Shown: positions 8,544 to 57,990 of the stretch, piece by piece
Numbering within the stretch: the first letter of the stretch is position 1
How the letters are laid out: each line of letters starts with the position of its first letter
Source of the DNA: Ectothiorhodospiraceae bacterium BW-2
Lineage (GTDB): Bacteria; Pseudomonadota; Gammaproteobacteria; Thiohalomonadales; Thiohalomonadaceae
DNA: 64,000 bases
Reading direction: 5' to 3'
NCBI GenBank assembly: GCA_008375315.1
Contig: CP032507.1
Coordinates: 3,992,071 to 4,056,070 of the forward strand
The notes under the pieces: model-generated
What the model saw: the letters and a program-made list of their open reading frames with translations, nothing else
What the model was told of the DNA's origin: nothing
Database searches by the model: none
Made by a program: the position numbers and the translations under genes

Positions 8544-11240
8544 TTACTCTGCTGGCGTCATTTCTAACGAATCACTATCATCACTTGTACCAGAGGCATT
8601 CACACCTCCGAATCCAGTGACTGGATCTTGATCAGCCACAAAAGTCACATAATAGTATGTATCGTTGATAGTTAGCTTATACGTAATTTCCTTATTAGCA
8701 TAAAAACCGTTTACAGAAATGGTAAAGTCTCTTTCACCATCAGCATTATAATCAAAATGTGCTAGACCTGGGGCTGACAAATTTGTTCCAGTTTCATCCG
8801 CACAAAGTTGCAAAGTTCCCCCTTCTGGGAAATCATTTGTTGTTAACGTATCAATTTCTTCTTGCTGCTTTCCATCACACGGATCAGGAACGGCATCATC
8901 TGGATGGTTAGTAATCGTAACCACATAGTCGATGGCAGCCCCTTGTTCAAACTCCCCAGCCACATTAGCTGACGGCGTTGCCGACACGGTGAACTGATAA
9001 TCACTGTAGTCATCCGTCGCACCACGAACAGTCTGAATAGTCACTGTCGCCTCGGTAGCACCGGCAGCAAAATTGATGGTAGAGGATTCAGGTTGGGTAT
9101 AGTGGGTACCCGCTTGCGCTGTATCACCCGCTGCACCAAAAGTTAACACCCCTTGCCATGCAATAGGAAGTGCCTCATCAACACTAAAGGTTAGTGTTAT
9201 GGCATCGCCTTCTTGAACCGAAACGGCATCGACAGGAACAAAACCGACATACTCTTCTACAAAATCATCGGAACCGATAGGCTCATCACCCCAAACATAC
9301 TCACCCCAGTCATACCCCTCATCATCACCGATAAAGTCGGGATCATTGGGATCAAACGCAGCAATATTGCCGCTCTCATTTGGATAGTAGCGGTCAATGT
9401 GGGTATCAAACGCCGTAAAGTATGTAAGACCGTCTAAATTCCCAATCGTAGCGAAGTCATCAACCCCTTCAAGTTCAGCAATCAACGCCTCTGCATTTAA
9501 TTTAGCTGACTGAGGAAGACTGGCTGGTAAGCGGCTATTAATACGAGCAACAGTAGTGCGAATATCATCAATAAGTTCATCTCGTAACGCAGCATCAATA
9601 GTTAGCTCTGGATCATTCACCAAATCACTAAACAGCTCAAGCACTTGGCTCAGATATTCCATATCCATACTATACTGATCGGCAGTGGGAATAGCGTCAA
9701 CCAGAGTACCTTCGGCGTTAACAATCTTACCTATCTGACCATTAGCCTGTAGGCCTAGACCCATCATGAAGAGAAAATCCTCTTCGGCCTCGTCACCCAA
9801 CTCAGTTACACGACTACCAGCCCCCCTATCGATAACTTTTACCAAAAAGTCTGCCGCATGGAGCACACGACTGTAGTCTGCTAGGTTATCCAGATTGAGT
9901 TCTGCCGGATCGATACAGACTTCAACCCCATCGCTAACGGAACAGGTTAAACCACCACCAAAACCGGTAATGACCGCTTTTAGTGACTCTTGATAGAGAG
10001 TGTCAAAGGTCTCATCGAAGGTGATATTCTCAAGATCAGCCAAGGTCTTATTTTTATCTTTAATGATGCGTGCAGCCACCATCTCTGTTTGTGGCGTGGC
10101 ATTGGCCTTAACCTCATCACCAGCGGTTCGTATAATAGAGCGCATCTGCTTCAGCTTCGGCGTAGATCCATCCGCTATTGTTCCACCTTCTGCCTTCACC
10201 GTTAACGGGAATTTCGCTTTAGGGATACCGGCAGGGATCGTATATTTACCGTCATCATCAGTGGTAGCGGTATAGGTATGACCCAATCTATCAGTAATAG
10301 TCACCGTTGCACCACGAACCGGCTCGTCGATAATCACCCCTGCGACGGTTGCGCTATCTTGAACGGTAATCACCACCCGATCAGTCGCTGTAGCGCCTTT
10401 ATCATCGGTAACCGTTACACTAAAGGTAAGATCTTCGTTAGCAGCTAAATTCGGTACCGTAAAACTAGGGGTTGCGGTATCTGCACCGGTTAAGGTGACC
10501 GTTGTACCACCAGCCTGAGTCCAAACATAGCTCGCAATCGTACCATCGCTATCTGTAGCAGTTGCTTCAAGATTAACCGTTGCCCCTTCCGCAACCGAAC
10601 TATCATTACCGGCATCGACAGTCGGGTCACTATTCGTTGATGCAGCCGGCTTAACGGTAACAACCACCTCATCTCTCTTCTCGACGCCTTGGTCATCCTT
10701 AGTCACTAAAGTAAAAACCAACTGCTGTTGCGAAGTGATAGACGCAGTTTTAAAGGTAGCGTTTGCCGTATCCGCGTTTTCCAGTGTGACCGGTAGGCCA
10801 CCTGCTTGCACCCACTGATAGGAGACAATATTACGAGTAGTATCGTTAATATTGGCCGCTAGAGTTGCTGTAGCACCTGCGGTGACCACTTGATCTGCAC
10901 CAGCATCACCCGCTGTTGTGGTATCGGTGGCTGTGGCCGTCGTCGTTGCCGTATCGGTAGTGGTGGCAGTGGTCGTCGCCGTGCCGGTAGCCGTTGCCGT
11001 GCCGGTAGCCGTTGCCGTGCCGGTAGCCGTTGTCGTGCCGGTAGCCGTTGTCGTGCTGGTAGCCGTTGTCGTGCCGGTAGCCGTATTAGTACTGGTCGCT
11101 GTCGCGGTATCTGTTGCTGTAGAGGTTGATGGCGAGCTATCCTCATCATCACTACAAGCCGATAGCGTCAGCACAGCACTAATAGCTAGCGCTAAAAACT
11201 TTTGACGGTGTGGAAAATTATGGTGATTACTATTATTCAT
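8544..11240 (-). CDS. Large surface lipoprotein with PKD-like, carboxypeptidase-regulatory and Calx-beta domains
   Basis: I place the start at the ATG at 11240, because the AGGAG ribosome site (11 bases before) lies downstream of the alternative ATG at 11264. The 898-residue product has a lipoprotein signal ending in the lipobox LSAC, an acidic Ser/Asp stretch (SDDEDSS) and a low-complexity Thr/Ala/Gly linker. Then come two PKD/REJ-like domains (each with YxWxQAGG and a VTV end), a carboxypeptidase-regulatory-like domain (AGVIIDEPVRGATVTI), a mostly helical region of unknown family and a Calx-beta domain (SVQEGDAITLTFSV ... GTHYTQPE). Family knowledge suggests an outer-membrane-anchored binding or structural protein. 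It has its own promoter at 11289-11317 and lacks the GWNLV modules of its neighbours. Confidence 0.8.
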   Translation of the reverse strand: MNNSNHHNFPHRQKFLALAISAVLTLSACSDDEDSSPSTSTATDTATATSTNTATGTTTATSTTTATGTTTATGTATATGTATATGTATTTATTTDTATTTATATDTTTAGDAGADQVVTAGATATLAANINDTTRNIVSYQWVQAGGLPVTLENADTANATFKTASITSQQQLVFTLVTKDDQGVEKRDEVVVTVKPAASTNSDPTVDAGNDSSVAEGATVNLEATATDSDGTIASYVWTQAGGTTVTLTGADTATPSFTVPNLAANEDLTFSVTVTDDKGATATDRVVITVQDSATVAGVIIDEPVRGATVTITDRLGHTYTATTDDDGKYTIPAGIPKAKFPLTVKAEGGTIADGSTPKLKQMRSIIRTAGDEVKANATPQTEMVAARIIKDKNKTLADLENITFDETFDTLYQESLKAVITGFGGGLTCSVSDGVEVCIDPAELNLDNLADYSRVLHAADFLVKVIDRGAGSRVTELGDEAEEDFLFMMGLGLQANGQIGKIVNAEGTLVDAIPTADQYSMDMEYLSQVLELFSDLVNDPELTIDAALRDELIDDIRTTVARINSRLPASLPQSAKLNAEALIAELEGVDDFATIGNLDGLTYFTAFDTHIDRYYPNESGNIAAFDPNDPDFIGDDEGYDWGEYVWGDEPIGSDDFVEEYVGFVPVDAVSVQEGDAITLTFSVDEALPIAWQGVLTFGAAGDTAQAGTHYTQPESSTINFAAGATEATVTIQTVRGATDDYSDYQFTVSATPSANVAGEFEQGAAIDYVVTITNHPDDAVPDPCDGKQQEEIDTLTTNDFPEGGTLQLCADETGTNLSAPGLAHFDYNADGERDFTISVNGFYANKEITYKLTINDTYYYVTFVADQDPVTGFGGVNASGTSDDSDSLEMTPAE
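10920..11115 (-). repeat. Low-complexity 18-base repeats encoding a Thr/Ala/Gly linker
   Basis: Units such as gccgtgccggtagccgtt recur with small changes and encode TATATGTATATGT-type sequence just after the lipid-anchor region of the lipoprotein. The linker probably holds the folded domains away from the membrane. An analogous TATETS repeat is found in the 2798-residue protein. Confidence 0.8.
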
Positions 11241-11283
11241 GTAACAAAATACTCCTGATTGCATCTATTGACCTATAAACCAG

Positions 11284-11327
11284 TGGCTAGTGTAGCCAAT
11301 TTTTAAGTGATTGCCAATGACATTGGC
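11284..11327. promoter_or_regulatory. Two palindromes overlapping the lipoprotein promoter, candidate operators
   Basis: GCCAATG-A-CATTGGC (11313-11327) is a perfect palindrome covering the -35 box, and TGGCTA-GTG-TAGCCA (11284-11298) is another covering the -10 box of the minus-strand promoter. Both carry TTGGC/GCCAA-type half sites. Position and symmetry suggest repressor binding; the regulator is unknown. Confidence 0.45.
11289..11317 (-). promoter_or_regulatory. Sigma70-type promoter for the lipoprotein and giant-protein operon
   Basis: On the minus strand, TTGGCA (11317-11312) and TACACT (11294-11289) are separated by exactly 17 bases, matching the -35 and -10 consensus at five and four of six positions. 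The predicted transcript starts near 11282, about 40 bases before the ATG at 11240. Confidence 0.65.
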
Positions 11328-11440
11328 GTGATATTAGCCCATCTAAACAAAACAAAGTGTGACCCACCTCACAAGTCGGACTCTCTTGCAAAAAAAAGAG
11401 CCCTAACCCCAATATCCTAAGATATTAGAGACTAAAAAAC

Positions 11441-13174
11441 CTACTCCAAGTAGAGCCATATCCCCTGCCCCGCCTCAATACTACGCTGGGATCCCACTTG
11501 CCGCTCAAAATCAAAGAAGCTCCAATTTTGATTAAATCGAAATAATCTCTTTGGAGTCAAGCCGGTCGCTTCAACTCTAGTCGCTAACTGCTCGGTATCA
11601 AACGGCTGATCCACCCCAATTAAATTCCACCCTCGGTAGAGAGTCTGCCATAGCTGCGTCTCTGAATCGGCAGCGGTGCCACTAACTATCAGATCAAACG
11701 AACTGCGAGCCTTAATCCATATCCCTCTATAGGGCGGCAGACGCTCACTAGAGGTTAATAGCGGCTCAATAAAGTGCCAAGCGGGTTGGCCTTCACTGTT
11801 TGGCTGATAGAGAAAAATGCGCTCAACCTCTGACTCATTGAAGAGCTCTGCCACCGTACGCGGCTCATCAAGGTGGAGACTAATCAAATTCCACCCCGCA
11901 GCTAGAGAGATTAGCTGTGTTAACTGCGGCGTGCCGTAGTGAACACTCGCCGTAGCAGCCGAGTCGCTAAATAGGCCGATCTCAGCCCCATAGCCACAGC
12001 TCAACTCGCCATCAGAGAGCGACTCACACCCAGGGGCCTGCGTATCCTGCCAAATATGCACCGCGTCGCTTGCGGTCGTTAGGGTTACATCGGCAAGAAA
12101 ACGGCTATAGCGAATCCCATAATGGTTAATCGCAACCGCCCCCTCACCGCTGATCTCATCTTCAAAGCGTCGGCTGCTATCAAATAGATTTCCATCACTA
12201 AAGTAACCAGAAGGGTACTTCGCAGCGTGAATAAAGTCATGAAACAGTTCGGATAAAGAGGTTTGGTAGTCCTGCCGCAGTCGATTATCGATAATCGACT
12301 CCCAGCCATCCTCGGTTGCAAAGCTCTCCAAAATCTGTCGCATAATATCCAGACCAAAGCGCCCCTCTAGGTAGAGAGCAAAAATGGCGGCACCATACTC
12401 TTTAGAACCATTAAAAGTATCCATATCGAGGTGGCACTGGCCATACCAACTATCGACAAAGCGGATATAGTCATCGCCCTCCGGGTAGAGCTGCTCCTCC
12501 ATCGCCGTGGCCGTGGCCTCTAGGAACCAGAGATCGCTATCTAAAAAGTCGCCGCTATCTTTATAGGCAAACTGCACTAAGTGGAACAGTTCGTGCGCTA
12601 GCGTAATCTTTAGTAGCTCCCCCTCTAGCACCGGATTAAAGACCATAAAGCCGGTACCTTCACTATATTGATCAGCAAAGGCGGCATAGTAGGGTTCAAT
12701 TCTGACAGTCCGCCCCGTTTGGGGATTTCTAGCGCCACGATTACCGATGTAGATATCGATATAGTAGCTCTCCGCCCCCACAGGGGCTCTCAAACCGAGG
12801 GAGGTGACATAGAAGTCGTGCACTCGGGCTAACTCCTCACTCAAACTCTCTGCCATAGCGATGGTAGCACTGTCATTGGCGTAGGTTTTGCCATAGATGA
12901 CTCGGTAGGGGGGGGTGTAGCGGTAGATATTGTAGTTATCCGATTCGATAGGTGCGACAGTTAATGCCAGTGGCGCAGGGGAGTTGGTACTATCAAGTGT
13001 CGCCATGAGCACTCTGGCGGTTACCACCTCGGCGGCACTCGGCGCACTCTCCCCTCGTCGTTCGGCGAAGGTTCCCCCCGCACGATGCTCTAATAGTAGC
13101 GAGTCACCCTCCGCTACCGTTGAAGCGTTCGAAGCGGTCGCAATCAACAACAGCGGCAGTAAAATTGCCACCAT
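11441..13174 (-). CDS. Secreted HExxH metallopeptidase with two C-terminal GWNLV modules
   Basis: The start is taken at the ATG at 13174, eight bases after AGGTGG; an upstream in-frame TTG at 13199-13201 would overlap the previous stop. The 577-residue product has a signal peptide (MVAILLPLLLIATASNAS). A zinc-peptidase core carries HELFH at about 194-198 and a downstream Glu in WFLEATATAMEE (about 219), the gluzincin pattern of MXAN_6640/peptidase-MA-like families. Two modules end the protein: GWNLISLHL (about 427) with RIFLY and GIWIK, and GWNLIGVD (about 515) with RLFRF, WSFFDF and GIWLY. The same modules are N-terminal in the three giant neighbours. It directly follows the 2798-residue gene, with which it is probably translationally linked. 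Processing of the giants by this peptidase is an inference. Confidence 0.85.
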   Translation of the reverse strand: MVAILLPLLLIATASNASTVAEGDSLLLEHRAGGTFAERRGESAPSAAEVVTARVLMATLDSTNSPAPLALTVAPIESDNYNIYRYTPPYRVIYGKTYANDSATIAMAESLSEELARVHDFYVTSLGLRAPVGAESYYIDIYIGNRGARNPQTGRTVRIEPYYAAFADQYSEGTGFMVFNPVLEGELLKITLAHELFHLVQFAYKDSGDFLDSDLWFLEATATAMEEQLYPEGDDYIRFVDSWYGQCHLDMDTFNGSKEYGAAIFALYLEGRFGLDIMRQILESFATEDGWESIIDNRLRQDYQTSLSELFHDFIHAAKYPSGYFSDGNLFDSSRRFEDEISGEGAVAINHYGIRYSRFLADVTLTTASDAVHIWQDTQAPGCESLSDGELSCGYGAEIGLFSDSAATASVHYGTPQLTQLISLAAGWNLISLHLDEPRTVAELFNESEVERIFLYQPNSEGQPAWHFIEPLLTSSERLPPYRGIWIKARSSFDLIVSGTAADSETQLWQTLYRGWNLIGVDQPFDTEQLATRVEATGLTPKRLFRFNQNWSFFDFERQVGSQRSIEAGQGIWLYLE

Positions 13175-49553: not shown

Positions 49554-51035
49554 TTAGTCAGAGTTCGGCTCCTGTGAGCGGCTCTCTGATGGCATAGCTG
49601 AATGTACGCCAGAAGGGTTGGCGTAGCGGTCGTTTAACATCTGCACATAGCGATCTGTGTCGCTTATGATAGTGTCAAGTCTGCGCTTGACTCCTCTTCC
49701 CCAACCGCAAGGAATCTTTTGAAACACTGAGCGCCAGCTAGCACTACTGCGCATAAATACCCCCCGTAGCTGCTCCTTGTCATTATCGTTGTTGGCCTGC
49801 TGTGCTAGCCACTTCAATACCGGCTTACGCGCCCAGTTGCGCACCACATAGTGAAGATAGAGGATAATAAAGGCAAGTAACGCAACGCTCACCCCGCCCC
49901 ACAGCGGTTGACTACTGAGCGAACTCACCCATGGAGCCAGAGCCATCTCCCCCTGTTGGGTATCGACTGTAGTATAGAATCCTAGCCCCAGCAGTAGTGC
50001 TAACAACAGACCATCGCCGATGAGGGTCAACTTACGCCAGCGCTGCAGCGCCTCTGACATCAACGGCAATAGCCGCTGCTCAAAATTGCGTGCTAACTTC
50101 TCTAAAGCCCCCACGATACGGTAGGCTCGCTCGATCTCGACCTGCTTAATGCGGGAGTGAATGTCGGCCAAATCGTGATCTCGCTTAGAGGAGAAGCGCT
50201 GCCGTAGCGCCTCATCCTCTATCGGCATCGCCGCCTTCTCATTATAGATAGTATAGAAACGCCCCGCAGTCAGCCCCTTCTGCGCCAGCGCCCGTTGCCA
50301 AGCGCCAAAGACCTCTTCAGGGTTATCCTCCCGCGCTGCGGTATCGATTTGGTTCAAAATAAAGAGAAATTTACTCGAATCGGCTCGATGTATCGTCCCC
50401 GAGACGAGATGGTTCAAAGTATCCTGCATCGCCCCTGGTTCAGGGTGGCGTGCATCGAAAAAGACCAAGACTAGATCGGATAGATCGATAATGTGCTCGG
50501 TCAGTTTCAGCGTCGCGGTACGCTGATCATCAGCATCGAATCCTGGCGAGTCGATTAGAATCTTGCCTCGTAATACCTCGCTCGGGCAGGTTTTTAGCTG
50601 AATATAGGAGTCTATCCGCTTCCCTTCGCCATCAGAGACCTTCTCTATCTCCTCACTAATTTGGTAGAAGGGGAAGCGCGGATCGGCATCGAGAGCCAGT
50701 CCGGGGAGCGTATGCACCTGCTGCTCTTTACTGTGGCACATGACGGTAAACTTGTCATCCACGGCTTGGTTACCCGACACCTGTAACTTCATACCGATAT
50801 AGTCATTGATAAAGGTTGACTTACCAGCTGAGAATGTCCCTAGCACTGACACCAGCGGCCACCAAGGAATGAGAGTTGCAAACGACTGATCACGGCGCAA
50901 CATCCCCATGCGGTAGGCGATTTTATCTAACTCACGAAAACTGTTGACCGCCTCAATCAAAATCGGGTTCTCATCCTCTAAATGGCGCTCTAATAGTTGT
51001 AAGCGCTGTATAATTATCGGTTCAGCTCCAAACAT
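49554..51035 (-). CDS. Dynamin-like GTPase with membrane segments
   Basis: The 493-residue protein has a large-GTPase domain with G1 GTFSAGKST (66-74), G3 DSPGFD (about 159) and G4 NQID (about 225), then a helical stalk-like region and two hydrophobic segments (about 337-354 and 376-395) with a basic C-terminal tail. Bacterial dynamin-like proteins remodel or protect membranes. The two membrane helices suggest stable insertion. Neighbours are a membrane coiled-coil protein and a ParA ATPase upstream and gacA downstream, all on one strand. Its specific role is unknown. Confidence 0.82.
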   Translation of the reverse strand: MFGAEPIIIQRLQLLERHLEDENPILIEAVNSFRELDKIAYRMGMLRRDQSFATLIPWWPLVSVLGTFSAGKSTFINDYIGMKLQVSGNQAVDDKFTVMCHSKEQQVHTLPGLALDADPRFPFYQISEEIEKVSDGEGKRIDSYIQLKTCPSEVLRGKILIDSPGFDADDQRTATLKLTEHIIDLSDLVLVFFDARHPEPGAMQDTLNHLVSGTIHRADSSKFLFILNQIDTAAREDNPEEVFGAWQRALAQKGLTAGRFYTIYNEKAAMPIEDEALRQRFSSKRDHDLADIHSRIKQVEIERAYRIVGALEKLARNFEQRLLPLMSEALQRWRKLTLIGDGLLLALLLGLGFYTTVDTQQGEMALAPWVSSLSSQPLWGGVSVALLAFIILYLHYVVRNWARKPVLKWLAQQANNDNDKEQLRGVFMRSSASWRSVFQKIPCGWGRGVKRRLDTIISDTDRYVQMLNDRYANPSGVHSAMPSESRSQEPNSD

Positions 51036-51116
51036 AACAAATCCCTCACATTAATTTGACTCTCCAACCGGCTCCACACTCAGAGCGGCTCCTCCTCTAC
51101 GCTGTCAACGCCCTTT

Positions 51117-51698
51117 TCACCAAGGAAAAAAGCTCGACATCTGGCTAATCGGGCGACCAATATTATGGTTCATCGCCCCCATTTCGTGCCGAATGCTATT
51201 GGTACTGGCAACCATCCCGAGTGTATTGCTATTTAACTGCTCCATGGTCATTCGCATCGGCCCTAAATTCCGCATCTCGTCGGTAATCGTATCCATTCCT
51301 ACCGAAATGTCACCAAGATTAGAGCTCATATAGCTCATTTCTGTCGCGATATTGTCCATGCTAGAGGTCATAATTGACATATCCATAGTAATCGAGTCCA
51401 TATTATCGACCAAACTAGTCTCAATCGTTTTAGTTAACGAATTGACATTCCTCGCTAATGAGGCAACATCATGGGTTAGACTAAAGATGAGATAGAAACC
51501 GTAGCCTGCCAAGATAATAAAGGCAAATAGCGAAGGATAGACCATCAACTCCCAACGACGAGCGCTACTCTCGAATACCGTTGCGAGGCGTTCGATATGT
51601 TCATCGGTCGGATTCACCCGCCGCCGAGATAAACGAGGCTCCGCTCTCTCGCTAACCACCTCATCAGCCACCTGCTGCCGCTTATCACTACTACTCAT
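51117..51698 (-). CDS. Single-pass membrane coiled-coil protein, Met/Ser-rich
   Basis: An unrecognised protein of 193 residues from the ATG at 51698 (AGGTGA five to six bases before); a GTG three codons upstream is possible. A charged cytoplasmic N-terminus (1-50) leads to a membrane helix (about 54-75) and a long coiled coil with repeated MSxM/MDxI units (SMDNIATEMSYMSSNLGDI). Topology suggests a periplasmic or cytoplasmic filamentous partner of the GTPase next door. The gene order with ParA and dynamin-like genes is the only functional clue. Confidence 0.7.
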   Translation of the reverse strand: MSSSDKRQQVADEVVSERAEPRLSRRRVNPTDEHIERLATVFESSARRWELMVYPSLFAFIILAGYGFYLIFSLTHDVASLARNVNSLTKTIETSLVDNMDSITMDMSIMTSSMDNIATEMSYMSSNLGDISVGMDTITDEMRNLGPMRMTMEQLNSNTLGMVASTNSIRHEMGAMNHNIGRPISQMSSFFPW

Positions 51699-51770
51699 GC
51701 CACTCACCTGCCCCTTTTAAAAAAATTTACGACAATTCAATCTCCCCCCCGATTGAAAAATACCCCTAAA

Positions 51771-52412
51771 CTAGAGTTGTGGATAGAGGTGCCCCACTAA
51801 CACCATAAACTCTTTAGCCGCTTTAGAGCCCGGCTGGAGCTCATAGACCGCGAGCCCCTCACTAAACGAGCGCCGATAGGCGGTTCGCTGAAATAGACGG
51901 CACGGCAGCACTCTCCCCCCCGGCAACATTTTTAGCGCCTCCTCGGCCTCATCCGACTCCCGAACATTGTGATGGGTATCGGCGCGATTCACAAACAGCA
52001 GCATCTCCGGCTTCTTACTCTGCTCAGCAACAACTTTATTGATAATGACCAAAAAGCGTTGCGTTGACCAGACATCGGCCTGACTCGGAGCGACCGGAAT
52101 AACCACCCTATCGGCCACACTAAGCGCCGCTCTCATCGCCTCCATATCGGCGGTACCGACATCGACCACCACCTCACCCTCATCAGCTGCCTGCGTTAGC
52201 ACGGCAGCAACCTCTTCGGGTACCGGTTCAACCTCTAGCTCCGGTTCAAAGCCCTCATCACTACGAACCTCTAGCACATCGCTCAAGGTCTTTTGTGGAT
52301 CGAGATCAAAGAGCGACACCTCGCTCTGGTGCCGCGATAGCCACACCGCTAGATTAAAGGCGACGGTACTTTTACCCGATCCCCCCTTTAGATTGCCGAC
52401 AACAGTTATCAT
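51771..52412 (-). CDS. Orphan ParA-family ATPase
   Basis: 213 residues with the deviant Walker A GNLKGGSGKST (signature Lys present), DLDPQ, a VVVDVG Walker B and PVAPSQADVWS. There is no parB nearby, so it is an orphan ParA/MipZ/McdA-like ATPase of the kind that positions protein complexes on the nucleoid or membrane. Neighbouring membrane coiled-coil and dynamin-like genes are possible cargo or partners (inference). Confidence 0.85.
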   Translation of the reverse strand: MITVVGNLKGGSGKSTVAFNLAVWLSRHQSEVSLFDLDPQKTLSDVLEVRSDEGFEPELEVEPVPEEVAAVLTQAADEGEVVVDVGTADMEAMRAALSVADRVVIPVAPSQADVWSTQRFLVIINKVVAEQSKKPEMLLFVNRADTHHNVRESDEAEEALKMLPGGRVLPCRLFQRTAYRRSFSEGLAVYELQPGSKAAKEFMVLVGHLYPQL

Positions 52413-52436
52413 CTTGCTACTCTACCTACCTTCTGG

Positions 52437-52931
52437 TTAATACTCTTCTCGGTACCCGCGATAGCCACTCTGCCGCCGCCGATAACGATCATCGTCATCG
52501 GGATAGGCGTAGAGATACAAGCTATCGAAACGATGACGGCGGTCATAGCGCCTCTCCTTCAGAGAGGTCGGCGGCTCATGGCTAAACAGATAGCGCTCAC
52601 TCTGTTTCAGATAGTCACGACGATAGCCCGCATTGAACTCTGTCGCCCCACTCTCCGGCCAGCGGTACTCGCTAGCAGTCGGAGAGTTATCGTCCCCCCA
52701 CTGCTCACTCAACCGCTGCCATGTCTGTTGGCGTTGGCGTTGGCGACTCTGTTGCCCCTCATCCCCCTCTAGCCACGGATTGTAGCGGCCTCGGTAGCCG
52801 GTTAGCGAGCGTTCGGTCGGTTCTGCTAGCTCAACTCGTCCCCAAGGACGCTCGGTCAGCTCCGAGGCGATCCCCAAAGCACCCCCCGAGAGCGCCCAAA
52901 GCAGTAACAGCGCTGCGGCTAACCGCACCAT
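52437..52931 (-). CDS. Small exported Tyr/Arg-rich protein of unknown function
   Basis: The start at 52931 is chosen because AGGAGG lies 11 bases before it and a signal peptide begins there (MVRLAAALLLLWALSGGALG); an ATG at 52979 would add 16 residues without a ribosome site. The 164-residue product is rich in Tyr, Arg, Asp and Gln (YPDDDDRYRRRQSGYRGYRE at the end), with no recognised fold and probably disordered. It lies between the RND pump and parA with short gaps. Confidence 0.65.
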   Translation of the reverse strand: MVRLAAALLLLWALSGGALGIASELTERPWGRVELAEPTERSLTGYRGRYNPWLEGDEGQQSRQRQRQQTWQRLSEQWGDDNSPTASEYRWPESGATEFNAGYRRDYLKQSERYLFSHEPPTSLKERRYDRRHRFDSLYLYAYPDDDDRYRRRQSGYRGYREEY

Positions 52932-53012
52932 GTCGATATCGACCTCCTGCTCCCCCAGACTATAGCGGCTTATCGCCATTAGCGCACCGGTGGAGAGTCA
53001 CGACGAGTCGCA

Positions 53013-56000
53013 CTACAACTCGGTATCATCGACATCCGACTTCAGCCGAATACCGCGCCGACCCTCGCTGCCGCTACCGCCTCTTTTAGGCGAGACTCGC
53101 CTCTTCTTAGGGGCGACCGTGGTGACGGTAATCGAACCGGCCCCCTCCTTTTTGGCCACCGGGCGCTTGACAGAGGTAGGCTCAATAACCGCGCGGCTCT
53201 CCCCCTGAGGCTCTTTAGGCGAAGGCGTAGGAGCCTCTCCCTCCCTCGTCTCTGAGGCCGAGGGGGCGGCAGGGGGAGGAGGGGGCGGGGGGGGAGTCTT
53301 TCCAGAGCCATTGCCCCCCTTTTTGCGCGAGCTAAATAGACCGAAGATGGCAAATAGCAGATCGACAAAGAGCCGCCACAACTTCAGCAGCAGCGCCGAG
53401 AGCACCATGAGCACCATCTTAAACAGTCCGGTAACGATATCGATAATACCGATCCCGCCTCCCTTATCGTCGTCATCGGCAGAGCTACTCTTGATAGAGC
53501 AGACCGACTCACCCGGCTCACAAAAGACCGCCTTAGCGCTAATACAGCCTAGAGGAATGACAATCAGCGTCAGCAGGGTCGAGACTAGCACGCCGAATAG
53601 TAGCGATATCGCCATCCCCTGAAAGATGTAGTCAGAGAGGATAACGCTCGAACCGGCAACTAGCGCTAAGGCGGTGATAATAATCGGCCGAGTTCGAGTC
53701 TGACAGGCCAAAATAACCGCATCTTGAACGCTACTACCATTGCGTACCTCATGAATCGAAAAATCGACTAATAAAATCGAGTTACGCACAATAATCCCCG
53801 CTAGGGCAATAAAGCCTATCATTGAGGTCGCGGTAAACTCTGCCCCCATCAACCAGTGCCCCGGAATAATCCCAATCAGCGTCAGCGGGATCGGCGCCAT
53901 AATAATTGCCGGAATGGTGAAATTACCAAACTCCCACACCACCAGAATGTAGATGAGAATCAGCGCCACCCCAAAGGCAGCTCCCATATCACGGAAGGTC
54001 TCGTAGGTCACCGTCCACTCACCGGCCCACTCAAAGCCTGAATGGCCATTATCGGGCGGCGGGCCGATGTAGTAGCTTTTAAGTTCGACGCCATCGGGTG
54101 TTATATACCCCTCGTTCGCTAACGCCTCTTCGACATCAAGCATGGCATAGATAGGGGCTGCTAGTCGCCCTACCGCCTCCCCGACCACATACTCAACCGG
54201 GCGCAGATCTTTATGGTAGATGGTCGCATCCTGCTCCATTTTGATAAACCTACCTAACTCAGCTAGCGGTACGATGCCCCCATTCGTAGAGGGAATAGGC
54301 AGATCGGAGAGTCGCGCGACCTGAGCCCGAACCGAGAGGGGAACTTGAAGAACGATACGGATCGGATCGAGGGTATTGCCCTGTTTAATATCGCCTAGCA
54401 AAAAGCCCCCCATCGCCATACTGAGATTGCGATTGATAGTATCGACCGAAATTCCCTGCCGGACAGCCTTTTCGGTATCGACCTCAAAGTGCCAAATGTC
54501 GTACGGCTCGGTCATATAGTTATCGACATCGGCTATCCCCTCAAGCCCATCAAAAATATCGGTGAGTTTAGCCGCAACAGCCCGACGGGTCGCCTCATCC
54601 GGGCCATACACCTCGGCCACTACCGCCTGCATCACCGGTGGGCCGGGGGGCATCTCCACCACAGTCACTCGGCCACCTATCTCTTTTGCCATCGGGGTAA
54701 TAATCCCTCGCACCTCAAGGGCGATATCGTGGCTAGTGCGCTCTCGGTCACCCTTATCGGTTAGCTGTACATGAATCTCCCCCTGCCACGGATAGTGGCG
54801 CAGATAGTAGTGGCGCACCATGCCGTTAAAATCAAACGGCTGCGCGGTGCCGACATAGGACTGCAAGGCAACGATCTCAGGCGTAGTACGAAGCTGCTCA
54901 ACCATATTAGCGATCAAATTGGCAGTCACCGGCAGCGCCGTCCCCTCCGGCATATCGATCACGATACTAAACTCCGGCTTATTATCGAGTGGCAACATCT
55001 TGACCGTCACCGCCGTGGTATAGAACATGGCACACACGGCAAAAAAGAGCACAATAATGGTTATTAGAGTCAGATAACCGATAAATTTATTCTCAATAAT
55101 CGGTGTAAGAACGCGATGGAATAGAACACCGAGCCGTTCATTTGCTTTATGCTCCTTCTCCTCCATTCGTTGCAGTTGACTCATGGAGGGCTTAATTCGC
55201 ATCGCAAACCAAGGGGTAAAGACAAAGGCGGCGAGCACCGACACCAGCATCGCGACCGAACCGAGCGCCGGAATCGGCTCCATATAAGGCCCCATCATAC
55301 CGCTCACAAACCCCATAGGTAACAGTGCGGCAATCACGGTAAAGGTGGCTAAAATCGTCGGGTTACCAACTTCGCGCACCGCATCGATGGCCGTATCGGT
55401 ATCCATCTCTCCCTTCTCTAGCCAGCGACGGTAGATATTCTCCACCACCACAATCGCATCATCGACCAAAATACCGATGGAGAAGATCAGGGCAAACAGA
55501 CTCACCCTATCGATGGTGTAGCCCATAATCCAAGCGGCAAAAACGGTCATTAACAGCACCACCGGAATAACTAGCAGCACCACCATTGCAGGCCGAAAAC
55601 CGAGAAACCACCAAATCAGTACCGCAACGGCACCGGTAGCGATAAAGAGCTTAAAGATAAGCTCGTTAACTTTTTGGTTAGCCGTAAAACCATAGTTACG
55701 GGTAATATCGATCTCGATATTGTCGGGAATTAAGCGCCCCTTCAGCGCCTCTAACTTACCGATCACCGCATTGGCGACAGTGACGCCATTAGAGCCCTCT
55801 TTTTTAGCGATAGCCACCGTCACCGCCGGTGCGCCATCGGCGACCCGACTCTCATCGGGGTAGGCCGGACCGGTATAGAACTGCACAATTTCACTGGTCT
55901 CTTCCAGCACTTTTTCGACATTAGCCACATCGCGGATATAGATTGGCACCCCATTTTGGGTGGTTAGTACCAGTCTGGCGATCTCCTCGGCACTGCGTAG

Positions 56001-56756
56001 AAAGGCACCGGTATTGACAGTAAAGAACTGGCTGCCACTCTCCACACTGCCGGCTCGCTGCTCACTATTGGCGCTACGAATCGTCTGCGCCACCTGATCT
56101 AAGCTAATACCGAAGCCGGAGAGCCGCTCCGGCATCACCTCAATTCGCACCTGTTCACTACGACCACCGACAATAAAGCCCTGCCCCGTATCGGGGATCT
56201 GCTTCACACTCTGTAGCAGCTCCAGCGCTAGCGTATGCAAAATACCGTCATCCACACTGTGTGACCACAAGGTGAAGGTGACCACCGGAACATCGTCAAT
56301 CCCTTTCGGCTTAACCAGCGGCATCTGTACCCCTGGCGGCATTTTGTCTAAGTTAGATTGCAGCTTATCGTGCACCTTAACAATGGAGGGGCCTAAATCT
56401 TCGCCCACATCAAACTGCACCGTCACCATCCCCTCACCACGCATAGCCGCTGAATAGACATGCTTTACTCGCGGAATTTCGCTCATTATCCGCTCTAGCG
56501 GATCGATCGCTTTATTAGAGACCTCGTTAGCGGAGGCCCCCGGGTAGGCAACAAAGATATCGATCATCGGCACCGATATCTGTGGATCCTCCTGTCGTGG
56601 CGTAAAGACCAGCCCCAACAACCCCATTGCCAACATGGCAAAAAAGAGGAGTGGCGATAACGGCGAGTGGATAAAACTCTTAGCTAGCTTACCCGCTAAC
56701 CCGAGGTCAGGTTGAGGTTCGTTGCTCTGATTCTGATTCTGTTGGTGATTAGACAT
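53013..56756 (-). CDS. RND efflux permease with proline-rich C-terminal extension
   Basis: Residues 1-1076 are a complete RND pump: TM1 near 32, periplasmic porter domains, and TM4 with GILVDDAIVVVENIYRR (about 425-441) carrying the proton-relay Asp pair. After the normal end comes an extension of about 171 residues: an acidic patch (ADDDD), an extra amphipathic or membrane segment (about 1106-1141), a run of eight prolines and a basic Ser/Lys/Arg tail (KKRRVSPKRGG). I know no RND family with such a tail. The adaptor gene is 94 bases upstream; no outer-membrane channel gene is visible. Substrate unknown. Confidence 0.92.
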   Translation of the reverse strand: MSNHQQNQNQSNEPQPDLGLAGKLAKSFIHSPLSPLLFFAMLAMGLLGLVFTPRQEDPQISVPMIDIFVAYPGASANEVSNKAIDPLERIMSEIPRVKHVYSAAMRGEGMVTVQFDVGEDLGPSIVKVHDKLQSNLDKMPPGVQMPLVKPKGIDDVPVVTFTLWSHSVDDGILHTLALELLQSVKQIPDTGQGFIVGGRSEQVRIEVMPERLSGFGISLDQVAQTIRSANSEQRAGSVESGSQFFTVNTGAFLRSAEEIARLVLTTQNGVPIYIRDVANVEKVLEETSEIVQFYTGPAYPDESRVADGAPAVTVAIAKKEGSNGVTVANAVIGKLEALKGRLIPDNIEIDITRNYGFTANQKVNELIFKLFIATGAVAVLIWWFLGFRPAMVVLLVIPVVLLMTVFAAWIMGYTIDRVSLFALIFSIGILVDDAIVVVENIYRRWLEKGEMDTDTAIDAVREVGNPTILATFTVIAALLPMGFVSGMMGPYMEPIPALGSVAMLVSVLAAFVFTPWFAMRIKPSMSQLQRMEEKEHKANERLGVLFHRVLTPIIENKFIGYLTLITIIVLFFAVCAMFYTTAVTVKMLPLDNKPEFSIVIDMPEGTALPVTANLIANMVEQLRTTPEIVALQSYVGTAQPFDFNGMVRHYYLRHYPWQGEIHVQLTDKGDRERTSHDIALEVRGIITPMAKEIGGRVTVVEMPPGPPVMQAVVAEVYGPDEATRRAVAAKLTDIFDGLEGIADVDNYMTEPYDIWHFEVDTEKAVRQGISVDTINRNLSMAMGGFLLGDIKQGNTLDPIRIVLQVPLSVRAQVARLSDLPIPSTNGGIVPLAELGRFIKMEQDATIYHKDLRPVEYVVGEAVGRLAAPIYAMLDVEEALANEGYITPDGVELKSYYIGPPPDNGHSGFEWAGEWTVTYETFRDMGAAFGVALILIYILVVWEFGNFTIPAIIMAPIPLTLIGIIPGHWLMGAEFTATSMIGFIALAGIIVRNSILLVDFSIHEVRNGSSVQDAVILACQTRTRPIIITALALVAGSSVILSDYIFQGMAISLLFGVLVSTLLTLIVIPLGCISAKAVFCEPGESVCSIKSSSADDDDKGGGIGIIDIVTGLFKMVLMVLSALLLKLWRLFVDLLFAIFGLFSSRKKGGNGSGKTPPPPPPPPAAPSASETREGEAPTPSPKEPQGESRAVIEPTSVKRPVAKKEGAGSITVTTVAPKKRRVSPKRGGSGSEGRRGIRLKSDVDDTEL

Positions 56757-56850
56757 ATCTGCTCAGCTGCACTGTACGGTTAGAAAACGACAAAATCTGC
56801 TCTTAAAGGCGATGATAGCTAAGAGCAGATCGGGAAATGGTTCAGGAGTT

Positions 56851-57990
56851 CTAGTAGCCGGAACGGCTGCCGATACCCGGCACCGGGTTGTTCAGCACCT
56901 GCTCGCCGGGGCGAAGGCCGGAGAGGATGATGATCCGCTCCCCCTCAACCTGTTGCCCCTTGCGTACCACCCGCATCTCCTTCTCACCACGCTGATTAAT
57001 CACATAGACCAGTGGCAGGCTCCCTCGTTCCACCAGCGCTGAGACGGGGATGATCGGTAGGTTCTGCACCGGCGTATTGACATCACTCACCCTCACCTCA
57101 GCATACATTCCAGGCGCAGCTGGCGCATTGAGCGGTAGGTCGAGCTTGACGGTGACTGTATGCCGAATCGGATCGGCCATCGGAAAGATTTGCGATACCT
57201 TCGCCTTGACTTGAGTATCACGAACATCGAGTTTGGCTTGAAGAATATCGTCCTGACGCACTCCGGGCATCAGACGGGCCGGTACATTAATCTCAATTCG
57301 CAGGGTCTCGGTATCGGCAAACTTCAGCAGCGGCATACCGGGCTGAACCGTATCCCCTACCTCCACTAATTTATCGACGATGACCCCATCAAACGGCGCT
57401 CTACCGACCGCATCCCGCAGTTTAGAGTCGATCTGTTCGAGCTGCGAGCGGGCCTGATCGTACGCGCTACGAGCCTGCTCCATCGCGGTGGTACGGTTAT
57501 AGATATCGGCATGGCGCTCCATCCCCGGATTGTTAATACCCATCATATCGGAAAAGTTGCGGGTAAAGACCTGATCAAACATCCCCGGCATCCCCATCCC
57601 CGACATGGTATTACGGCTCTGCGGCGAGACCAGTTCGCGGTTGAGCTGGGTACCGGCATTACGCCAAGCCGCCTCGGCACTCTGCATGGCGGCAATGGCA
57701 GCGCGTCGCTGGGCTAATAGCTCATCGTCGTCCAGCGCCACCAAAATCGTATCGGCGCTAAAACTGTCGCCCTCACTCCCTGCAAGGTACTCAATCCGCC
57801 CCGGAAGCTGAGCCGAGATCAACACCTCTCTCGCCGGAACTACCGTCCCCCCCAGCACGACCTGGTTTTGGTATTGAATCGTCTCAACCGTTACGATATC
57901 CCCCCGCTGTTCGACAGCCTGTGCTGTCGCAGTCACCAGCAGAGCACACATCAACACGACCAGCATCACCGTTCTATCTAACATCGTCAT
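56851..57990 (-). CDS. RND periplasmic adaptor subunit
   Basis: A 379-residue membrane fusion protein with a signal peptide (LVVLMCALLVTATAQA), lipoyl halves (ISAQLPGRIEYLAGSEGDS and RAPFDGVIVDKLVEVGD, each partly shown), a hairpin with a Met/Gly-rich segment (SGMGMPGMFDQVF) and a beta-barrel plus membrane-proximal domain ending GEQVLNNPVPG. It delivers substrates from the RND permease encoded next. It follows merR by 64 bases; no tRNA-Pro gene, often found here in relatives, is present. Confidence 0.9.
   Translation of the reverse strand: MTMLDRTVMLVVLMCALLVTATAQAVEQRGDIVTVETIQYQNQVVLGGTVVPAREVLISAQLPGRIEYLAGSEGDSFSADTILVALDDDELLAQRRAAIAAMQSAEAAWRNAGTQLNRELVSPQSRNTMSGMGMPGMFDQVFTRNFSDMMGINNPGMERHADIYNRTTAMEQARSAYDQARSQLEQIDSKLRDAVGRAPFDGVIVDKLVEVGDTVQPGMPLLKFADTETLRIEINVPARLMPGVRQDDILQAKLDVRDTQVKAKVSQIFPMADPIRHTVTVKLDLPLNAPAAPGMYAEVRVSDVNTPVQNLPIIPVSALVERGSLPLVYVINQRGEKEMRVVRKGQQVEGERIIILSGLRPGEQVLNNPVPGIGSRSGY

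Follow-up and report, generated by a model that had tools for sequence, protein, structure and literature searches.

A run of six genes in Ectothiorhodospiraceae bacterium BW-2 belongs to a cassette, conserved across families of Gammaproteobacteria, whose resistance-nodulation-division (RND) pump carries a long C-terminal tail with a seven-residue motif. The tail is missing where the ParA-type ATPase of the cassette is missing, and the cassette genes are associated with genes for sulfur globule proteins (SGP, PF17228). The run lies at 49554-57990 (-) of the window, by which we mean the whole stretch of 64,000 nt of contig CP032507.1 that was analyzed; the coordinates given for the run are window positions. 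We favor the reading that the cassette encodes machinery of the cell envelope that serves periplasmic sulfur globules and is positioned by ParA by way of the pump, and give this a probability of about 0.48.

The order of the genes is adaptor, RND pump, small exported protein, ParA, a membrane coiled-coil protein (CC) and a dynamin/EHD-like protein (DLP). A preliminary description of the window had reported them as consecutive on one strand with gaps under 100 bases, as is indeed the case (94, 33, 24, 63 and 81 bases). The features of the run are as follows.

56851-57990 (-), periplasmic adaptor (membrane fusion protein, MFP); RND_mfp TIGR01730, 168.7 bits, above cut-off
53013-56756 (-), RND pump (HAE/AcrB-type), 1247 amino acids; ACR_tran 474 bits, residues 27-1069
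53016-53549 (-), C-terminal tail of the pump, residues 1070-1247, past ACR_tran, with a hydrophobic segment and a Pro-rich and Lys/Arg-rich linker
53040-53060 (-), motif RRGIRLK, residues 1233-1239, proposed ParA partner peptide, recognized by its conservation in pumps
52437-52979 (-), low-complexity protein (Pro/Tyr/Arg-rich), predicted to be exported or membrane-anchored, 180 amino acids; no Pfam or NCBIfam match
51771-52412 (-), ParA-type ATPase with deviant Walker A KGGSGKST; CbiA 7e-15, above cut-off
51117-51707 (-), membrane-anchored coiled-coil protein (CC), defined by an alignment of 19 sequences
49554-51035 (-), DLP, nucleotide-binding protein of the dynamin superfamily (EHD-like); Dynamin_N 54.7 bits, cut-off 27

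Conservation and members of the cassette

Genome contigs were scanned with an alignment of DLP, and the best 80 of 529 confirmed relatives were kept, many of these loci being short contigs. Clustering of the open reading frames (ORFs) across the 80 best loci recovered the adaptor in 43, the pump in 41, CC in 34 (a count that takes in a few copies outside the run) and ParA in 33; the gene run is more than a chance grouping. The adaptor was found upstream of the full pump in all 44 loci having at least 1.5 kb of upstream DNA. Nineteen loci include 7 kb or more past the pump on its downstream side. Of these, 18 have CC there, 16 have ParA, 16 a TPR protein, 14 a same-strand DLP, 13 a DUF4412 protein and 7 a DUF302 protein; the CC figure is partly circular, since CC or DLP matches led to 12 of these loci and the scan with DLP to the other 7.

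Two layouts were observed: all genes on a single strand, which is the window arrangement, or DLP divergent from an adaptor-pump-ParA-CC block. The most constant unit across the families is adaptor-pump-ParA-CC, and DLP is the loosest member, a companion often divergent or located elsewhere. In a survey of 274 Gammaproteobacteria genomes, with limits set by us (DLP E 1e-30, CC E 1e-6, SGP at its cut-off), 66 were DLP-positive, CC being present in 45 of them and absent from 21. Both genes lie within 8 kb in 24 of the 45 genomes having them (in G264 with a CC copy that is not part of a standard cassette); the remaining genomes have them on separate contigs, except G103, where a long distance lies between them. 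The preliminary description had singled out ParA, CC and DLP as a trio and proposed a search of their neighborhoods. The three are conserved together beyond chance, and ParA and CC do recur downstream of the pump, but the trio is not the constant unit, as DLP also occurs alone or away from CC.

The N-terminus of the CC proteins varies; behind it come a membrane region of strong conservation and a coiled coil, the latter predicted to be periplasmic. DUF948 was considered as an identity for CC and rejected, its match being under cut-off only. DLP can be placed in the dynamin superfamily by its Dynamin_N match and by its fold; both profile (EHD4 7e-6) and fold (Foldseek 9e-11 for EHD4) bring it closest to EHD4 and EHD2, using a model with a predicted local distance difference test (pLDDT) of 80.9. 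EHD proteins remodel eukaryotic membranes. Unlike them, DLP has hydrophobic stretches in its C-terminal half, no EH domain was found in it, and it has N-Q-I-D where EHD proteins carry N-K-x-D.

Further conserved members are absent from the run in the window, namely the LolA-fold DUF4412, TPR and DUF302 proteins and additional exported low-complexity proteins. Ten of 18 sequences of the DUF4412 member match DUF4412 at E up to 0.01. Its model (pLDDT 85.8) resembles LolA3, RseB, LolA and EPDR1 in Foldseek at E ~1e-5 with low TM-scores (~0.2-0.4 of query), and VIA-align gives Z 10-12 for RseB, LolA and EPDR1 over ~150 residues, with a Thermus protein and VioE scoring no lower (Z 12.7); assignment to a LolA/RseB-like fold class has thus fair support from the model. 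LolA itself carries a hydrophobic ligand through the periplasm.

The pump tail and ParA

The pump in the window continues for 178 residues beyond its ACR_tran domain, and its long-tailed relatives with a complete C-terminal end for 172-355 residues. These tails share an order, with a hydrophobic segment (in most), a stretch rich in Lys, Ala and Pro, and then the motif, which starts 7 to 28 residues from the C-terminal end of the pump. RRGI[RK][LI]K was found in 40 of the 49 pumps with a complete C-terminal end and RRGIQLK in or near the end of four more, so that RRGI[RQK][LI]K accounts for 44 of the 49. Among 13505 ORFs of the analyzed loci this pattern occurs in 49, all labelled as pump. Five pumps, from four distinct loci (L130, L135 = L190, L189 and L193), are tail-less, having only 28-37 residues after ACR_tran. 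Pumps L088, L084 and L116, whose C-terminal end is cut, were left out of the motif counts, and L212 was excluded, its pump lying in two frames; L190 duplicates L135 (identical pumps) and L214 duplicates L132 (contigs of equal length). The window pump did not reach the cut-offs of the NCBIfam pump subfamilies.

Residues K9, G10, G11, G13, K14, S15 and T16 of the ATPase (KGGxGKST) are invariant across 19 sequences, identifying it as a ParA/MinD-type protein. Against NCBIfam ParA_partition NF041546 the window protein scored 138.6 bits, under the cut-off of 180, and its nearest solved structure is plasmid ParF of TP228 (positions 7-203 of 212, E 3.4e-15). Unlike ParF, the cassette ATPase belongs to an envelope cassette on the chromosome, and no ParG or centromere was recognized.

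The loci of the tail-less pumps have no ParA, and L205 shows the same pattern. A ParA profile search was run on 32 whole genomes, in which most cassette ParAs scored between 267 and 342 bits and ParAs of other kinds did not exceed 108. With a limit of E 1e-20, no match was obtained in G099, G223, G121 and G237, the genomes that own L189, L190, L193 and L205, and nothing above 88 bits in five genomes having neither CC nor DLP (G008, G020, G038, G045 and G080). One long-tailed pump, L186 of G103, has no adjoining ParA, and a related ParA scoring 195 bits was found on another contig of this genome (L204). For the distinct loci that could be judged, tail and ParA were both present in 38, the tail alone in 1, ParA alone in 0 and neither in 4 (Fisher 4e-5), the true weight of this table being smaller because the joint losses are confined to few lineages (G099 and G223 belong to one family, G121 and G237 to another). 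Five long-tailed pumps with less than 4 kb of downstream DNA (L078, L110, L133, L114 and L099) are omitted from it. A larger table (41, 1, 0 and 5) includes L209, L211 and L213, which were fetched by their ParA and make it partly circular; we thus quote the smaller one.

The joint absence of tail and ParA, together with the finding elsewhere of the ParA of the exception, argues that the pump is probably the cargo of ParA, as the preliminary description had suggested it could be, and that the tail is quite likely to serve as the partner peptide; the support for both comes from sequence. Excerpts of two papers (PMC10241942, PMC12204374) describe partners that bind ParA/MinD ATPases by a short, basic and disordered N-terminus and that can belong to the cargo itself. 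A basic peptide ending a long, probably disordered tail would fit this mode, but at the C-terminus.

Sulfur globule genes and the proposed function

Between the pump and ParA or CC, 36 loci contain a total of 74 exported low-complexity ORFs rich in Pro, Tyr, Gly, Asn and Arg, their signal peptides being called by a simple hydrophobicity rule. The median fraction of P, Y, G, N, R, Q, W and S is 0.62 in these ORFs vs 0.37 in other cassette proteins. Sixty-nine of the 74 passed the composition limit; after removal of 5 (L071 and four short overlapping frames) and addition of the window protein, 65 were scanned, 64 of them thus picked by composition and two (from L190) repeating L135. Thirteen of the 65 match the Pfam SGP family at E up to 1e-3, and proteins of L153 (E 7.2e-15) and L141 (E 1.9e-8), checked singly, exceed its curated cut-off. 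An NCBIfam search of the low-complexity proteins gave no useful match. The window protein at 52437-52979 occupies the place where relatives carry these sulfur-globule-like proteins.

At the level of genomes, SGP above cut-off was present in 42 of the 274 Gammaproteobacteria, 38 of them with DLP, 39 with CC and all 42 with one or the other, and in none of the 196 genomes having neither. Ten of the 42 have an SGP gene 0.1-4.7 kb from a cassette gene, where a rough estimate predicts ~0.7. The converse is weaker, with SGP in 39 of 57 CC genomes and 38 of 66 DLP genomes; the SGP profile is of low complexity, and the absence of a match is therefore weak evidence. CC and DLP do associate with soxB, yet sox was rejected as the explanation, given that the association with SGP persists inside the 112 soxB-positive genomes: both, CC only, SGP only and neither number 39, 13, 2 and 58 for CC (Fisher 1.6e-16), and the same classes 37, 18, 4 and 53 for DLP (Fisher 8.5e-12), values that overstate independence as the genomes are related. 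In a set of 75 genomes, each from a different family, that overlaps with this survey the counts for DLP are 10, 6, 1 and 58, and the single exception, G062, has the cassette without DLP alongside (L146). In this 75-family subset dsrA, tested in the 95 relatives only, was present in 12 of 16 families with DLP vs 10 of 59 without. The genome of the window, a single contig of 4.07 Mb, encodes soxB, two dsrA above cut-off and three SGP genes, all outside the run. A link of the cassette to sulfur-globule storage seems to us a good deal more probable than its absence; such storage is the likely context, one that is not visible from the window alone.

On the reading we favor, adaptor and pump would form an inner-membrane transport unit acting on a hydrophobic periplasmic substrate; in the same compartment the exported low-complexity proteins, some of them recognizable as SGP in relatives, would coat or nucleate sulfur globules, with a putative LolA-fold carrier added in relatives. 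The pump would double as ParA cargo, its cytoplasmic C-terminal tail presenting the basic RRGI[RQK][LI]K in or near the end; this peptide would bind ParA on the nucleoid and trigger its ATPase, so that pump clusters, and hence globule sites, would be spread through the cell and shared at division. CC would span the membrane and scaffold the cluster from the periplasmic side, and DLP would shape the inner membrane around the globule. We infer ParA binding, the direction and substrate of transport, the positioning and the membrane shaping from the genes and their associations; that globule sites are positioned by the ParA-pump route is possible from sequence. More tentatively still, the cassette may be a dedicated positioning and partition machine for a periplasmic storage organelle, in which a nucleoid ParA acts across the inner membrane, the RND pump serves as the tagged handle and an EHD-like protein shapes the membrane.

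If true, ParA would here act on a cargo that is not cytoplasmic, and a transporter would serve as its partner as well; a membrane transporter would join the cargos of ParA, and orphan ParA genes of this type would gain a proposed partner. Beyond the coat proteins, little is understood of how sulfur oxidizers build, coat, place and hand on periplasmic globules, and the cassette supplies a defined set of genes and, with it, a prediction: a seven-residue pump motif that is absent where the ATPase is absent.

The proposed machine resembles McdA/McdB and other ParA/MinD cargo systems in having a ParA-type ATPase beside presumed cargo genes and a partner that would work through a short basic disordered end (excerpts of PMC10241942, PMC12204374). 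It departs from McdA/McdB in that an integral RND pump, with its motif at the C-terminus, would be the cargo and the organelle would lie in the periplasm; neither an McdB-like gene nor carboxysome genes were recognized in the run, no dedicated search for them having been made. With the tripartite pumps of AcrB type it shares an adaptor beside an ACR_tran pump, and it differs from them in the long tail with its motif and in having no outer-membrane channel gene in the run: the outer-membrane efflux family had no match in the six genes or in the adjoining gacA-like gene, and a channel could come from elsewhere. SgpA-D of Allochromatium vinosum are likewise exported repetitive proteins, and PF17228 members occur inside the cassette of relatives; sgpD adjoins a hydrophobic/amphiphilic exporter in the excerpt of PMC10386293, which may correspond to this pump. 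No description of such a cassette was found in the one literature collection searched, in which the excerpts retrieved on sulfur globules together with ParA or RND used ParA in another sense or concerned other pumps; in an excerpt of the sulfur-globule literature the SUP05 clade is said to be without dynamin.

Several observations weigh against a ParA-positioned globule machine. Most long tails hold a hydrophobic segment, possibly membrane-crossing; if it does cross, the motif would be periplasmic and unable to meet ParA, and L198 retains motif and ParA without such a segment. The ParA of G103 that covers the exception scores low, with no cassette gene recognized around it (L204), and this type of ParA lies without a recognized pump in the surrounding DNA also at L206, L207 and L210, which belong to G061, G195 and G051, genomes whose pumps were not searched for. 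On the side of the globules, the low-complexity protein of the window has no SGP match in Pfam, unlike SgpA-D, and the three SGP genes of its genome sit far from the run; SGP is undetectable in 18 of the 57 genomes with CC and in 28 of the 66 with DLP, and the Thiohalomonas-type relatives G010 and G016 have DLP with neither CC nor SGP. RuBisCO also goes with DLP (13 of 16 vs 18 of 59 families, counted by eye), making lifestyle a confounder, and single deletion of sgpD had no phenotype in the excerpt of PMC10386293. The relatedness of the genomes and the few lineages with joint losses, given above with their tables, count in the same direction.

An ordinary efflux pump for sulfide by-products, metals, biocides or hydrophobic toxins, spatially organized by ParA and tied to globules indirectly via habitat and ancestry, is a rival reading that we consider rather unlikely. 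The pump is of HAE type, CC and DLP go also with soxB and DLP with RuBisCO (by eye), and RND transporters were upregulated during sulfide oxidation in Azospira, perhaps for metal efflux (excerpt of PMC5358917), a finding that does not favor a globule machine. Such a pump leaves unexplained that the SGP association survives inside the soxB-positive genomes, that SGP genes lie inside the cassette in several families, and that the cassette includes a set of exported coat-like proteins. To our knowledge, sets of this kind are not usual in efflux operons.

Transport of lipid or hopanoid together with membrane remodelling appears improbable: here pump, adaptor and LolA-fold carrier would move lipid that sheathes globules or forms an internal membrane, and the EHD-like protein would bend that membrane. 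The LolA/RseB/ependymin-like fold of the DUF4412 member and the EHD-like DLP speak for it; the LolA-fold member, however, is missing from the run (the rest of the window genome was not searched for it) and from 6 of the 19 loci, no lipid gene was recognized in the run, and the SGP-type proteins indicate the globule itself. It is just as improbable that the tail motif binds DNA, membrane or another member, ParA and tail co-occurring through a shared other partner. The Lys/Ala-rich linker does resemble DNA-binding tails. The tail-less pumps, on the other hand, keep CC, TPR and DUF4412 proteins yet are without ParA, and short basic disordered ends are a known mode of contact with ParA/MinD (excerpts of PMC10241942, PMC12204374).

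Neighboring genes and related loci

A gacA-like gene follows 28 bases beyond DLP, in agreement with the preliminary description; its top NCBIfam match, UvrY/SirA/GacA, is under cut-off at 148.9 bits. Membership of this gene in the unit was rejected, since among the 80 best loci a gacA-type gene stands beside DLP only in L063-L066. The next genes are presumably uvrC and pgsA, named from their translations with no family search. A scan for promoters and terminators gave a result at chance level.

Conserved flanking genes of the divergent layout were likewise tried as members; among those tested were a NadA and a GAF-GGDEF protein, and we take them as clade-specific neighbors. A very conserved protein of 131 amino acids without evident signal peptide adjoins the adaptor at several collinear loci as well as where the layout is divergent (e.g. 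L070 8948-9340 (-)). A provisional label, SCP2, was dropped because the members tested had no Pfam match and no solved structure matched the family.

Homologues of CC occur outside the cassette, as tandem pairs (L144, L145 and L149), near dsrA (L142-L144) and beside gatC (L184), so that CC alone is no proof of a cassette. In the window genome itself, L145 (C1:773000-792000) has tandem CC homologues at 10356-10934 and 10938-11591 beside a sigma-70-family factor. In three genomes of different families CC homologues lie ~5-10 kb from dsrA (L142 11035-11637, L143 9719-10258 and L144 6569-7740), and this proximity is a second tie of the CC family to sulfur oxidation.

ParA and DLP are also found in other surroundings. 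The ParA of L206 keeps TPR and DUF302 companions. At L100 (8332-11377) DLP seemingly stands among the usual outer neighbors with the adaptor-to-CC block gone, as if lost in one piece. Five records named Magnetococcales (L112, L124, L127, L136 and L139) carry a close DLP relative (55-57% identity), with no cassette gene recognized in the available DNA, which for L139 is 6 kb only. The DLP-only loci L102, L104, L107 and L119 have a glnD-type gene upstream of DLP, and in L102 a gene for an outer-membrane efflux protein follows it. In L195 (9280-13419) DLP lies near another CC homologue and a larger ParA/MinD-like protein of 415 amino acids, possibly a second version of the arrangement, and the same genome also carries adaptor-pump-ParA elsewhere (L211).

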